From Gulosibacter molinativorax (lineage in GTDB: Bacteria; Actinomycetota; Actinomycetes; Actinomycetales; Microbacteriaceae): a stretch of 64,000 bases of DNA. The stretch is from the NCBI RefSeq assembly GCF_003010915.2, contig NZ_CP028426.1, positions 2,852,001 through 2,916,000 on the forward strand, given 5' to 3'. The position numbers and the translations under genes were made by a program. Below are positions 8,531-59,557 of this stretch, piece by piece (positions within the stretch are counted from its first letter, which is position 1; every line of letters starts with the position of its first letter). The notes below the pieces were generated by a model that did no database searches, was not told the DNA's origin, and saw only the letters and a list, made by a program, of their open reading frames with translations.

Positions 8531-8623
8531 TTAGCGGCCATGGAAAACTGCCCATAGGCGGCCAGGGAATTGCCCGCTGACGGCCAACCGGACTGCCCAC
8601 TGGTGGCCACAAGATCTGCCCAC
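8531..8623. repeat. Left subterminal repeats of the IS21 element
   Basis: Four direct copies of a block of about 23 bp (GGCCA, about ten bases, then CTGCCCA or TTGCCCG) are arrayed before istA. Related inverted copies occupy the right end at 11088-11165. They are probable IstA binding sites. Confidence 0.65.
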
Positions 8624-11087: not shown

Positions 11088-11165
11088 GGTGGGCAGATCT
11101 GCTGGCCATGACTGGGCAGTTTTCGTGGCCACCAGTGGGTAGTTCTACTGGCCGCCCGCGGGCAG
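11088..11165. repeat. Right subterminal repeats of the IS21 element
   Basis: Three copies of the same block seen at the left end, in inverted orientation (TGGGCAG, spacer, TGGCCA/TGGCCG), lie between istB and the right tip. Confidence 0.65.
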
Positions 11166-12350: not shown

Positions 12351-12445
12351 CTCGATACGGGCTACGCCCTACTCGGTGACCGAAGGTCGTTGAGTAGCCG
12401 CGCAGCGGCGTAGCGAAGCGCTTCGCCCTACTCGGTGACCGCAAC
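12351..12445. repeat. Dispersed palindromic repeat, family A
   Basis: The segment contains TCGATACGGGCTACGCCCTACTCGG and, inverted, TTGAGTAGCCGCGCAGCGGCGTA, followed by another CGCCCTACTCGG half. The consensus half-site is GAGTAG, a variable GC-rich core, then GTATCGA. Related copies are at 30839, 32655, 37440, 45522, 49655, 54145 and 59488. Here it fills the gap between the DsrE gene and the convergent ArsR gene. Confidence 0.75.
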
Positions 12446-26437: not shown

Positions 26438-26648
26438 GGCCATTGCCGGTGGCGCTCATGATTGCCGTTAGCGCTTCCACCCCTTGCCGGTGGCGCTCAT
26501 GATTGCCGAAGTGCGGGCATGGGTGAGCGTTACCGGCAATGGTGGGGGTGGGATGCGCGTGGGCGAGAGCCAAGGGCGCATCCGCCCCTTGCCCGTAGCG
26601 CTCATGATTGCCGAAGTACCAGCATGGGTGAGCGTTACCGGCAATGGT
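26438..26648. repeat. Inverted and direct copies of the ~42-bp repeat, family B
   Basis: CCATTGCCGGTGGCGCTCA opens the left side at 26440; its inverted partner TGAGCGTTACCGGCAATGG closes the palindrome at 26525-26543 and again at 26628-26646. Between them are units with CTTGCCGGTGGCGCTCATGA and CTTGCCCGTAGCGCTCATGA. The array fills the gap between the dehydrogenase terminator and the convergent mtnN gene. The unit matches the two copies at 22637-22795. Confidence 0.7.
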
Positions 26649-26669
26649 CGGGGCGGGATGCGGTTTCGA

Positions 26670-32654: not shown

Positions 32655-32683
32655 CTTGCCGAGTAGCGCAGCGTATCGAGGCC
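32655..32683. repeat. Family A half-repeat
   Basis: GCCGAGTAGCGCAGCGTATCGAGG is one half-site. The 250-base gap between the glutaredoxin-like and Lrp genes otherwise shows only the region just before the Lrp start (TAAAGGGAGG ribosome binding site). Confidence 0.65.
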
Positions 32684-37439: not shown

Positions 37440-37505
37440 AGCTCAGCTGGCTGGGTAGCCGTAGGTCACTCACGCTGGCTGAGTAGCCGAAGGCGTATCG
37501 AAGCC
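37440..37505. repeat. Family A repeat upstream of the permease gene
   Basis: GGGTAGCCGTAGG and GGCTGAGTAGCCGAAGGCGTATCGAAG are two copies of the GAGTAG half-site. The gap of about 260 bases between E2 and the permease otherwise contains an inverted CAGCC/GGCTGG-rich stretch (37400-37450) that could act as a weak terminator. Confidence 0.65.
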
Positions 37506-45521: not shown

Positions 45522-45550
45522 CCGAGTAAGGCCGTAGGCCTGTATCGAGG
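45522..45550. repeat. Family A half-repeat between ccsB and menC
   Basis: CCGAGTAAGGCCGTAGGCC followed by TGTATCGAGGGG; one half-site in the 50-base gap between the convergent genes. Confidence 0.6.
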
Positions 45551-45558
45551 GGCCGCAC

Positions 45559-46566
45559 CTACGCTTCCGCGCGTGCCACGAGAACTTCGTGGCACGCGCG
45601 GATTCGTTCGTGCCACCACTTTTCTCGCTCGGCGGATGCGCGATACTCGCGCAGCAGCGACTCCCGCGGCAGCGCCACCTCAAGCGAGACCCGGCCGTTC
45701 TTCGGCCTGCGAGGCTCGGCCAGCACATCCGCAGCGAACAGCGAGACCGTGCCGAGCCCTGCCGCGAAGCGCGGTTCAGGTAGCCGTGCGGCGAGCTGCG
45801 CCCCCATGACAATCCCGACCGAGGTATCAAGCGCGCTCGACACCGTCGCGGTGAGCCCCGCATCCTTGACCACCCTGGCCGCGTTGCGGATGCCGCCGAG
45901 CGGCTGCACCTTGACGATCACGTGGTCGGCAGCGCCGGCCCGAGCGACGGCCAGCGGGTCGGTCGCCTTCCGAACCGATTCGTCGGCCGCAATCCGGGTG
46001 CCGAGATCCCGGATGCGCTGCCGCAGCTCCGCGAGCTCCGGCACGGTCGCAACCGGCTGTTCCGCGTATTCGAGGGTGATGCCGAGCTTCGCGATCTCGC
46101 GTAGCGCGTGCTCCGCCTCGTCGAGCTGCCAGCCCGCGTTCGCGTCAATTCGCAGGGATGCTTCGGGCAGCGTCGCCGCGACGGCCTCGATTCGCGCGAG
46201 GTCGTCTGCGAGGGTTTGGCCGCGCTCGGCGACCTTCACCTTGACGGTCCGACAGCCGTCGAACCGGGCGAGGACGCCCGGGACTTCCTCCGGACGCACC
46301 GCCGGAACCGTGGCATTCACATCGACCCACCCCGCGCAGAGCCGCTCCAGCGTGGGATCGAAGCCGTACTCGATCGCGGCGGTGAGCCAATTGGCGGACT
46401 CCTCCGCGTCGTATTCGAGGAAAGGCGAAAACTCGCTCCACGCCCAGGTGCCCTCGATGATCGCGGCCTCGCGCTGCGTCACTCCCCGGAACTTCGTGTT
46501 GAGCGGCAGCGACACGATGCGGGTGCGATCGAGCAGGTCGGGGAGCGAAGGCAACATGGCCTCCAT
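45559..46566 (-). CDS. menC: o-Succinylbenzoate synthase
   Basis: ATG 46566 (MEAMLPSLPDLLD) gives 335 residues; ATG 46557 is an alternative and upstream frame is not coding. Enolase-superfamily residues: KVKV (catalytic Lys), RIDANAGW, EYAEQPV and AADESV for metal binding, then VKVQPLGG. It dehydrates SHCHC to o-succinylbenzoate in menaquinone synthesis. It is transcribed opposite to the other men genes of this region. Confidence 0.93.
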   Translation of the reverse strand: MEAMLPSLPDLLDRTRIVSLPLNTKFRGVTQREAAIIEGTWAWSEFSPFLEYDAEESANWLTAAIEYGFDPTLERLCAGWVDVNATVPAVRPEEVPGVLARFDGCRTVKVKVAERGQTLADDLARIEAVAATLPEASLRIDANAGWQLDEAEHALREIAKLGITLEYAEQPVATVPELAELRQRIRDLGTRIAADESVRKATDPLAVARAGAADHVIVKVQPLGGIRNAARVVKDAGLTATVSSALDTSVGIVMGAQLAARLPEPRFAAGLGTVSLFAADVLAEPRRPKNGRVSLEVALPRESLLREYRASAEREKWWHERIRACHEVLVARAEA

Positions 46567-49654: not shown

Positions 49655-49728
49655 GGTGAGTAGTCGCGGAGCGACGTATCGAACCGGAGCTGGCTTCGAT
49701 ACGCCGACTGCGTCGGCTACTCAACCAG
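49655..49728. repeat. Complete family A palindrome between menB and menE
   Basis: GTGAGTAGTCGCGGAGCGACGTATCGAAC and, inverted, CTTCGATACGCCGACTGCGTCGGCTACTCAACC form a head-to-head pair with a short loop. It fills almost all of the gap and leaves only the menE ribosome binding site (GAAAGGGCAG). Confidence 0.85.
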
Positions 49729-52912: not shown

Positions 52913-53398
52913 ATGTCCCGCGCACTCATTCTCGGTATCGTCGTCGCCGTAGCCCTTACCGTCTACGCGATTGTTGATTGCGCCATGTTTGATGCGAAAC
53001 GCACCAAGGTGATGCAGAAGCCGATCTGGTTGGTGGTCATCTTGCTCGTGCCGGTGATCGGTCCGTTGCTGTGGATGTTCATCGGCAAGGGGAGCAGCGA
53101 CGACAAGGCCGCAACTGGCCAGCACGTCATCCCGGACGACATCAACTACATCAGCGATCCGAAGACGGAACGCGAGCACGACTCCCGCATCGCCGAGCTC
53201 GAAGAGCAGATGCGCCTTCTCGACGAAGAGATTGAGCGCGACCGCCAGAGCACGATGCGCAATCATCCTTCGAACCACCAGACCGGCGCAATCCCCACCG
53301 TGACGCCGGACGAGGAAGACAACCCCGACGCCGAGACCGAGAAGCCAAAGACGAATGGCGAGGCAAACGGCAGCGACGACGAGGGCCGACGCAAGTGA
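52913..53398 (+). CDS. PLDc_N domain membrane protein
   Basis: 161 residues: two helices (LILGIVVAVALTVYAIVDC and PIWLVVILLVPVIGPLLWMF), the latter a PLDc_N signature as at the N-terminus of cardiolipin synthases, then a coiled-coil-like stretch (RIAELEEQMRLLDEEIER) and an acidic tail. No phospholipase domain is attached. Its TGA overlaps the menD GTG by 4 bases, so it is coupled to menD. Confidence 0.85.
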   Translation: MSRALILGIVVAVALTVYAIVDCAMFDAKRTKVMQKPIWLVVILLVPVIGPLLWMFIGKGSSDDKAATGQHVIPDDINYISDPKTEREHDSRIAELEEQMRLLDEEIERDRQSTMRNHPSNHQTGAIPTVTPDEEDNPDAETEKPKTNGEANGSDDEGRRK

Positions 53399-55395
53399 GC
53401 CCGGCGGGGCCGTCTTCCCCCGCCCTCGCCGCGGCGACCGAACTCCTCGTCGCCGCAGTGAACGGCGGAGTGCGCGATATCGTCGTGTGCCCGGGCTCGC
53501 GCTCGCAGTCGCTGGCGCTCGTCGCCGCTGAGCTCGAGCGCATCGGCGCGGTCCGCCTGCACGTGCGCATCGACGAGCGGTCGGCCGCGTTCTTCGCGCT
53601 CGGTATCGCTCGGGAATCGGGCAAGCCGGTGCCAGTCATCACGACCTCGGGCACCGCGGTCGCGAACCTCGGGCCGGCGATGCTCGAGGCGCACCACGCG
53701 GGTGTGCCGCTCGTGGCGCTCACGGCCGACCGTCCCGCCGAGCTCATGAACACCGGTGCGAACCAGACCACCCGTCAGCCCGGCCTGTTCGGCGACCTCG
53801 TGCCGCACACGTCCCTATCCGCGCCGGACGGCAGCGAGGCCTCGCTCGCCCTGGCGCGCGACGCCGGAGCGGCGCTCGCGGATGCGCGGGTCGCCTGGCA
53901 CCTCAACGTCGCCTTCCGCGAGCCGCTGTCGGATGCGGTGCCCGATTTGTCGGAGCGCGTCACGGTTCGAATCGGCGGCGAGGATGCGTCGGCTTTGATC
54001 GTCAGCTCAGATGCGGCGGAAGCGTGGCCGGGAGACGCCGGTGACCGGCGCATTCGAGCCGGGATGCCGGGCAAAGGCCTGCCCGCGGACCTCGCCGAGG
54101 CCATCGCGAAGGATCTCGCCGCCCACGCCCCCCGCGATCGCTCATTGAGTAGCACCGAAGGGGCGTATCGAAATGCGGGCGAGCCCTTCGATACGGCTTC
54201 GCCTACTCAGGGATCCTTCGATACGGCTTCGCCTACTCAGGGATCCCCGAACCGCACCGAATCGATCGACCCGGGCGAATGGCCAAACGCGCTCGTCGTC
54301 GCGGGTGACCGCGCGGGCCGCCTCGGCGAACACCTCGCGCACAAGGGCGGCTGGCCGCTCATCGCGGAAGTCTCGAGTGGCTCACGCTTCGGCCGGAATG
54401 TCATCGCCACCTACCGCGACCTCCTCGGCGAGAACAGTCCCATCCCCGCGTTGCGCGACGCGGTCGAGCTCGTGATCGTCGTCGGCCACCCGACGCTCAG
54501 CCGCGAGGTGCCCGCGCTGCTCAAGCGCGAGAGCATCCGCGTCATCGTCGTCGATCAGCCTGGCGTCCCGCCGTACCGCCCGACGTCAAACGTCGAGGCG
54601 GTCGACGAAGTTAAGGTGCTCGCGTTCGGCTCGACGATGTTCTCGAACGCCGACGAGCAGTACCTGCTCCGGAAAGAGGCGAAGCGCTGGCTACACGACT
54701 GGACGGCGGCCGACCACCAACTGCTTGTTGAGCGGGACTCCGACCCGGAGGCCCCGAACGTCGCGGCGTCGCGAAGCCAGGACTTCCGCGAACGCGCGCG
54801 CTTCGGCCGCGAAGAGCTCGCCGTCTCGCGCGAGAAGGTCACGCGCGAGATGCTCGCCGACTCGATCTGGCGGCTCACGTGGCCGCACGACCGACTCGTC
54901 GTCGCCGCATCTCGGCTCATCCGTGACCTCGACTCGCGGGTGCCGGGCAAGCGCATCCACGTGCACGCGAACCGCGGGCTTGCGGGCATTGACGGCACGA
55001 TCGCCTCGGGGCTTGGCATCGCTCACGCTTCGCAGCACGGCGACGACCTCGCGGCCCACGCGGGGCAGACCCGCGTGCTGATCGGCGATGTCGCGTTCCT
55101 CCATGACGCAAGCTCGCTGCTCGTGGGCCAGGCAGGCGAGGATGCGCCGCGCATCCAAATCGTCGTCGGCAACGATGGCGGCGGGACGATTTTCGACTCC
55201 CTCGAGGTCGCGAAGACGGCCGATCGCGCATCCTTCGACCGCGTGCAATACACGCCGACGACCGCGAACATCCAGGCGATCGCGGAGGCTTACGGCTGGA
55301 CGTATCGCCGCGCCGACACCCGCGGCAGCCTCGAGGAGGCGCTCACCGACGGCACGGCGCCGAGGATGGTCATCGAGGTCCCGCTCGATCGCTAG
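53395..55395 (+). CDS. menD: SEPHCHC synthase MenD with an in-frame repeat insertion
   Basis: GTG 53395; 666 residues, about 80-120 longer than typical MenD. N-terminal thiamin domain: VVCPGSRSQSLALVAAELE and the catalytic Glu in RIDERSAAFFALG (E61); C-terminal site: IGDVAFLHDASSLL and GNDGGGTIF. It adds the 2-oxoglutarate-derived unit to isochorismate. Residues about 251-283 are encoded by dispersed family A repeat DNA (54145-54244), including two exact copies of a decapeptide FDTASPTQG with one variable residue. The frame is kept, so the enzyme is presumably functional with a surface loop. Confidence 0.93.
   Translation: MSPAGPSSPALAAATELLVAAVNGGVRDIVVCPGSRSQSLALVAAELERIGAVRLHVRIDERSAAFFALGIARESGKPVPVITTSGTAVANLGPAMLEAHHAGVPLVALTADRPAELMNTGANQTTRQPGLFGDLVPHTSLSAPDGSEASLALARDAGAALADARVAWHLNVAFREPLSDAVPDLSERVTVRIGGEDASALIVSSDAAEAWPGDAGDRRIRAGMPGKGLPADLAEAIAKDLAAHAPRDRSLSSTEGAYRNAGEPFDTASPTQGSFDTASPTQGSPNRTESIDPGEWPNALVVAGDRAGRLGEHLAHKGGWPLIAEVSSGSRFGRNVIATYRDLLGENSPIPALRDAVELVIVVGHPTLSREVPALLKRESIRVIVVDQPGVPPYRPTSNVEAVDEVKVLAFGSTMFSNADEQYLLRKEAKRWLHDWTAADHQLLVERDSDPEAPNVAASRSQDFRERARFGREELAVSREKVTREMLADSIWRLTWPHDRLVVAASRLIRDLDSRVPGKRIHVHANRGLAGIDGTIASGLGIAHASQHGDDLAAHAGQTRVLIGDVAFLHDASSLLVGQAGEDAPRIQIVVGNDGGGTIFDSLEVAKTADRASFDRVQYTPTTANIQAIAEAYGWTYRRADTRGSLEEALTDGTAPRMVIEVPLDR
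54145..54244. repeat. Family A palindrome with a 30-bp tandem duplication inside menD
   Basis: Forward half TTGAGTAGCACCGAAGGGGCG then TATCGAA (54145-54172) is followed by two exact 30-bp inverted halves (54185-54214 and 54215-54244) reading CCTTCGATACGGCTTCGCC and TACTCAGGGAT. The 30-bp unit keeps the menD frame and encodes a decapeptide twice. Confidence 0.9.
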
Positions 55396-59487: not shown

Positions 59488-59557
59488 GTGAGTAGGCCGG
59501 AGGCCGTATCGAACCGCCCCTCGATGCGGCCTTCGGCCTACTCGGGGATCCCTACTC
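59488..59557. repeat. Complete family A palindrome between the ATPase and menF
   Basis: GTGAGTAGGCCGGAGGCCGTATCGAAC and, inverted, CTCGATGCGGCCTTCGGCC then TACTCGGGG form a head-to-head pair in the gap between two convergent genes; its last bases reach the menF stop. It might also help termination. Confidence 0.85.

Follow-up and report, generated by a model that had tools for sequence, protein, structure and literature searches.

Results and Discussion

The menD locus and its repeat units

The menD gene of the soil bacterium Gulosibacter molinativorax lies in a 64,000 bp stretch of DNA, called the window below, which corresponds to positions 2,852,001-2,916,000 of contig 1. The genome comprises two contigs of 3,465,658 and 37,013 bp. 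Homologues of menD are named 2-succinyl-5-enolpyruvyl-6-hydroxy-3-cyclohexene-1-carboxylate synthase, and the PDB match is that same enzyme. Within the gene, three units of a dispersed hairpin repeat lie in frame, and two of them form an exact 30 bp tandem duplication. The features, in window coordinates, are the following:

53395..55395, plus strand: menD, host gene of the repeat cluster; ORF of 666 aa, open throughout
54130..54243, plus strand: menD codons 246-283, with all three units inside; predicted to be disordered (AlphaFold2 pLDDT below 50)
54143..54175, minus strand: unit A, core 54147-54171 with a 4 bp outer helix per side; encodes LSSTEGAYR (residues 251-259)
54184..54212, plus strand: unit B, core 54188-54208 with a 4 bp outer helix per side; encodes FDTASPTQ (residues 265-272)
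54214..54242, plus strand: unit B', core 54218-54238 with outer helix; tandem copy of unit B, encodes FDTASPTQ (residues 275-282)
54185..54214, plus strand: tandem duplication, copy 1, exact 30 bp
54215..54246, plus strand: tandem duplication, copy 2, 30 bp and two more identical bases

The MenD linker includes the sequence FDTASPTQGSFDTASPTQGS. The initial annotation had placed a dispersed palindrome in frame within menD, together with an exact 30 bp duplication that keeps the frame, and both observations are borne out. Three core units are present at the DNA level, segments 54185-54214 and 54215-54244 are identical in an open frame, and the identity at a shift of 30 continues for 32 bp, to position 54246. 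A 24-base pattern with up to three mismatches was matched three times in the window and never in 100 shuffles. Short exact tandem repeats are prone to misassembly, and an assembly error might have created the duplication. Against this, the identical 666 aa MenD is on record for three contigs, presumably from separate assemblies, and strain ON4T was sequenced with PacBio and 454 technology according to PMC9477822. Such an error is considered very improbable.

The MenD linker in relatives and in the predicted structure

The linker between two conserved blocks of MenD measures 115 aa in G. molinativorax and 111-137 aa in its seven nearest homologues. In more distant homologues (P0027-P0030) the same segment is shorter, 35-64 aa. 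The expectation that the repeat makes MenD longer than usual therefore fails against the nearest relatives, and lengthening of the protein by the repeat was rejected. The repeat peptides were found in none of the 29 homologues, the seven nearest included, and the menD gene of G. chungangensis carries no repeat unit; the alignment thus agrees with the predicted absence of the segment from relatives. The motif [YF]Gx[WL]P is present in all seven of the closest homologues and is missing from the G. molinativorax protein. The linker has an ordinary length and lacks this motif, so the repeat took the place of native linker without lengthening the protein relative to its nearest kin. The site represents a replacement rather than a clean insertion, and for this reason the original event in menD is not reconstructable.

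MenD has a long and variable linker at the same place across the genus, which could imply that the likeness to the repeat is accidental and that the segment is simply an ancient loop of the protein. This explanation is refuted by the match at the DNA level, where three core units, two of them in exact tandem duplication, stand against an expectation of zero, and also by the lack of the repeat peptides in all 29 homologues. Its probability is negligible.

The AlphaFold2 model of MenD has a mean pLDDT of 85.1, with residues 246-283 below 50. Residues 195-212 and 214-229 are also below 50, though they contain no repeat unit. In the model of NadB, a second protein with repeat units (mean pLDDT 71.9), residues 274-341, 343-350 and 458-505 fall below 50. 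The repeat segments of both proteins are thus predicted to form disordered, floppy linkers.

Sequence and structure of the repeat family

The pattern TCGATACG-N(1-30)-CTACTC matches 151 times on the two contigs of G. molinativorax, and its reversed version does not match at all. Two narrower patterns list 150 places; one overlapping place (2379460-2379497) was dropped, leaving 149 copies for analysis. The inner segment occurs in 78 distinct sequences among these copies. In 128 of the 149 its pairing is perfect as far as a 3-4 nt loop, mostly TTC (63 copies) or TGC (34 copies). The four outer base pairs are of Watson-Crick type in 139, 130, 131 and 130 copies, compared with 78, 57, 49 and 93 expected from the column composition. 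Position +7 is C in all copies except one (148/149). Covariation was assessed on copies whose inner segment is 11 bases long; of these 67 copies, all except 692264 were used, leaving 66. In the two-helix structure 93.8% of cells pair, and the covariation score is 0.623, versus 0.173 for shuffles and at most 0.082 for slid versions. The core TCGATAC/TACTC is invariant, and both of the helices flanking it covary. Because the helices vary in sequence while the core stays fixed, these data suggest that it is the structure that is recognised.

The folding stability of four single units as free DNA is not unusual (z 0.04 to 1.13), and the whole menD cluster is unusually stable (z -3.25). With eight flanking bases on each side, 137-143 of the 149 elements are free of stop codons in each of the three forward frames; the corresponding numbers for the three reverse frames are 141, 51 and 0. 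No known RNA family reached its gathering threshold within the window. A scan of viral contigs with a 14-base pattern returned at least 120 stretches, a count that is uninformative as it was obtained without a control pattern.

Genomic placement of the copies

A simple gene finder assigned 59 of the 149 copies to spacers of convergent genes, 61 to those of co-directional genes, 11 to those of divergent genes and 18 to the genes themselves. Coding sequence makes up 87% of the fetched bases, yet only these 18 copies are located in predicted genes. For the convergent and co-directional sites, the median distance from a gene 3′ end is typically 15-40 bp. Opposed neighbours within 150 bp of each other form 29 pairs, 21 of them in -+ order. 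Neighbours of the same orientation form 15 pairs; in the 13 extragenic ones the start-to-start distances are not multiples of three, and in the two intragenic ones they are 30 and 42 bp. Exact tandem duplications of whole units occur at four intergenic loci (28, 29, 29 and 31 bp; the 31 bp locus has three units). The fifth such locus is menD, and the 42 bp pair in nadB is identical over only 32 bp. Gene conversion, which had been proposed for the exact copies in menD, is therefore not required, and as a necessary cause it was rejected, since exact duplication of whole units recurs in the genome. The copy density along the chromosome is uneven: each 200 kb interval of the first 1.2 Mb contains 1-6 copies, and the two intervals at 3.0-3.4 Mb contain 20 and 25.

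Pattern matches in the window outside menD are the following:

12352..12416: opposed pair, 12352-12374 (plus) and 12392-12416 (minus, one mismatch)
32661..32679, minus strand: single unit
37481..37501, minus strand: single unit
49658..49722: opposed pair, 49658-49682 (minus) and 49696-49722 (plus); no counterpart in the spacer of G. chungangensis
59490..59543: opposed pair, 59490-59512 (minus) and 59521-59543 (plus, one mismatch); units present in the spacer of G. chungangensis, but different ones

Two other repeats were seen in the window. Region 26440-26662 contains two 87 nt copies, 90% identical and 105 bp apart, along with shorter partial copies, and regions 8567-8623 and 11089-11164 form the arms (52-57 nt, 74-81% complementary) of an inverted repeat about 2.5 kb apart.

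The placement of the copies may indicate that the hairpins serve above all as functional elements in DNA or RNA, such as terminators, 3′-end stabilisers or protein-binding sites, which are selected and duplicated, with the copies in genes as by-products. The prevalence of convergent and co-directional over divergent sites close to gene 3′ ends is in line with this explanation, all the more as only about 14% of the intergenic bases in the window belong to convergent spacers; the covarying helices with their fixed core are also consistent with it. However, the same placement is expected if insertions in genes and promoters are lost. Behind co-directional genes both orientations are seen (25 same, 36 opposite), and exact copies exceed 100 in only three of 11 Gulosibacter genomes, the other eight having 0-1, which implies that no general function is required. 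A primarily functional role is regarded as quite unlikely.

Other genes with in-frame copies

A genome-wide count of repeats inside coding sequences, suggested as a check in the initial annotation, shows that menD is not alone: 17 of the 149 copies are in frame, in ten genes. Three copies each are found in menD and nadB, and two each in hrpA, putA and a type IIG restriction-methylation gene. The genes for an ABC-F ATPase, a small-domain methyltransferase, a DUF6153 protein and a DruE-like helicase and an aroE-like C-terminal tail contain one copy each. The names HrpA, AroE and ABC-F are those which we presume for these proteins. The rule based on codon usage assigned 17 of 150 places to genes, and the gene finder 18 of 149 copies, adding 723307 and 1243419 and dropping 1948908; the gene finder counts copy 1248690, which overlies an ORF edge, as intragenic, and this copy is excluded from the 17. 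Five of the genes (menD, nadB, hrpA, putA and ABC-F) were compared with relatives, and for the remaining five the assignment is based on frame and codon usage. The type IIG restriction-methylation gene and the DruE-like helicase gene, both with in-frame units, are part of a defence-like stretch (G000:C1:1243419-1248714).

The nadB gene has two sites. Site 2 contains three exact units, and site 1 contains another three, each of which departs from the core at one position. Site 1 of NadB measures 74 aa in G. molinativorax, 60 aa in G. chungangensis and 32 aa in another protein from Gulosibacter. Among 117 further homologues, its length has a median of 30 and a maximum of 39. The repeat peptide at this site reads PLDTACGLL in G. 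molinativorax and PLDTASGLL in G. chungangensis. As judged from these sequences, the nadB insertion is common to the two species and makes the protein longer. Site 2 measures 59 aa in G. molinativorax and 38 aa in G. chungangensis; its length alone is little informative, as other homologues range up to 69 aa (median 36).

At the first site of hrpA an insert is present in G. molinativorax and G. chungangensis and missing in five other congeners aligned, one row of this alignment (L160) being in the wrong frame. At the second site, compared without L160 (G009), G. chungangensis has a specific in-frame insert of 39 bp with one unit, which is lacking in G. molinativorax and in five congeners, although L161, among these five, carries an unrelated insertion there. 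The linker residues of PutA are missing in five of the eight homologues shown; at this site G. chungangensis has low-complexity sequence and two other homologues have short inserts. The linker preceding the C-terminal domain of the ABC-F protein is the longest among ten compared.

Turnover and distribution of the family

Comparison of the window with the syntenic region of G. chungangensis shows that, of six unit loci in G. molinativorax, only the spacer at 59490-59543 has units in both species, and these differ. Conversely, the places that match four unit loci of G. chungangensis have no unit in the window. At 45548-45620, where G. chungangensis has three units of the family, the window contains an inverted repeat of 34 nt with a 5 nt gap and another sequence.

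At least one copy was found in 102 of 249 Microbacteriaceae genomes and ten or more in 54 genomes, as counted from the table of the 249; the highest number is 1,180. Low counts can be due to chance, as one genome has 3 matches to the control pattern. G. chungangensis has 107 copies, Agrococcus lahaulensis 92, A. sediminis 34, and A. baldri NBRC 103055 and Agrococcus sp. KRD186 15 each. In the set of genomes used for the named loci, six of 15 have no copy. Within one genus, the exact pattern was counted 1180, 336, 667 and 0 times in genomes G054, G124, G178 and G227.

Search for a mobilizing enzyme and comparison with known systems

The Y1 transposase family PF01797, which holds the RAYTs, was not found in the G. 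molinativorax genome, and a RAYT encoded in this genome was therefore rejected. The family was detected in only two of the 249 Microbacteriaceae genomes, a sample that does not include G. chungangensis, and the two carriers hold 0 and 1 exact copies. The control of this search gave a match in five of 14 control genomes. Since this search, which covered the Y1 family, brought up no enzyme that could move the repeat, its movement is inferred from comparison only.

REPs inside open reading frames are described for the GTAG and CGTC families in PMC3733652; more than half of them are dimers or groups coding for 20-30 aa, and Rickettsia conorii is among the hosts. In the same source, GTAG REPs are reported from Proteobacteria, Cyanobacteria, Chloroflexi and the PVC group, and its main text contains no words beginning with Actino, Microbacter, Clavibacter, Streptomyces or Mycobacter. 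Similar to the GTAG REPs as presented there, the family studied here consists of short palindromes of high copy number (151 matches versus none for the control, with covarying helices) which form opposed pairs, lie at gene 3′ ends (59 convergent and 61 co-directional versus 11 divergent among 131 intergenic copies) and occur in some cases in frame within ORFs. Variation in the stem is compensated and an invariant GTAG adjoins the inner helix in both. In contrast to GTAG REPs, GTAG is here enclosed by a second covarying helix, so that it does not seem to be terminal, and no RAYT was found (0/1 here, 2/249 in the family). For these two reasons the repeat is not filed as a GTAG REP. The dispersed opposed pairs of short palindromes are also reminiscent of REPINs and their RAYTs, the subject of PMC3116915 and PMC2817692, from which the family differs in the lack of a RAYT and in the tandem duplication of whole units.

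It is conceivable that the copies are REPs moved by a RAYT in the past, with the gene since lost, or by one that escaped detection. GTAG, the complement of CTAC, is invariant beside the inner helix, and the opposed pairs, the high copy number and the 3′-end location resemble those of REPs in PMC3733652. The enclosed position of GTAG and the near absence of PF01797 (lacking here and in 247 of 249 family genomes, its two carriers having hardly any copies) argue against such a history, which is unlikely.

The initial annotation had compared the menD segment with Rickettsia palindromic elements, tolerated as protein loops. This likeness stands as regards the in-frame palindrome and the predicted disorder of the MenD segment (pLDDT below 50), and does not extend to a lengthening of MenD. 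In-frame insertions in genes for known proteins, missing in relatives, are found for hrpA, nadB and menD, and Rickettsia elements are likewise inserted in frame in such genes and mostly tolerated as an extra peptide, as stated in PMC3733652. The R. conorii elements end in CGTC according to the same text, whereas the present repeat belongs to a different phylum, and an alignment of 66 copies with eight flanking bases reveals no CGTC that is conserved. In its behaviour, the present family is like the ORF-internal REPs of PMC3733652. The earlier statement that no such description is known holds for this family, of which no description was found in the open-licence full-text literature, but not in general, since PMC3733652 already describes REPs in ORFs. 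The repeat thus looks like a new actinobacterial REP-like family, patchy in distribution, with up to 1,180 copies and with a RAYT-type family in only two of 249 genomes.

Proposed origin of the menD segment

We propose, with a probability of roughly 0.8, that the menD segment is a cluster of REP-like palindromic elements located in the linker that joins the N-terminal to the central domain and tolerated there. The element is about 30-40 bp long and consists of a variable 4 bp outer helix, the invariant TCGATAC/TACTC core, and a variable inner helix closed by a loop of about 3 nt. Copies arise at new sites, as the species-specific insertions show, and form opposed pairs, and whole units duplicate in tandem, as seen at the five loci. 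An intragenic copy would persist if it preserves length and reading frame, if this frame is free of stops and if the site is a loop or linker. In this proposed filter the conservation of frame is observed, the disorder is predicted for MenD and NadB, and purifying selection would probably do the sorting. Survival of copies in genes is best explained by such a filter. In MenD, the repeat occupies the place of the native linker seen in relatives, and the duplication of one unit presumably followed at a later stage. For the peptide that it encodes, an independent function is very unlikely.

In-frame palindromic insertion, known in Rickettsia and some REP families, is now extended to Actinomycetota, with the species-specific insertion in hrpA and the nadB insertion common to two species and differing in length as examples. 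A further, tentative proposal is that the mobile DNA hairpins form a superfamily which is common across Microbacteriaceae and exceeds 1,000 copies in one genome. A dedicated enzyme other than a RAYT may move them by recognising the invariant TCGATAC/TACTC core, leaving the sequence of the helices free, and the superfamily may keep adding translated linkers to proteins. The patchy and very high copy number without a RAYT-type transposase raises the question of what moves these hairpins, and the survey of 249 genomes can be used as a profile for seeking candidate enzymes.
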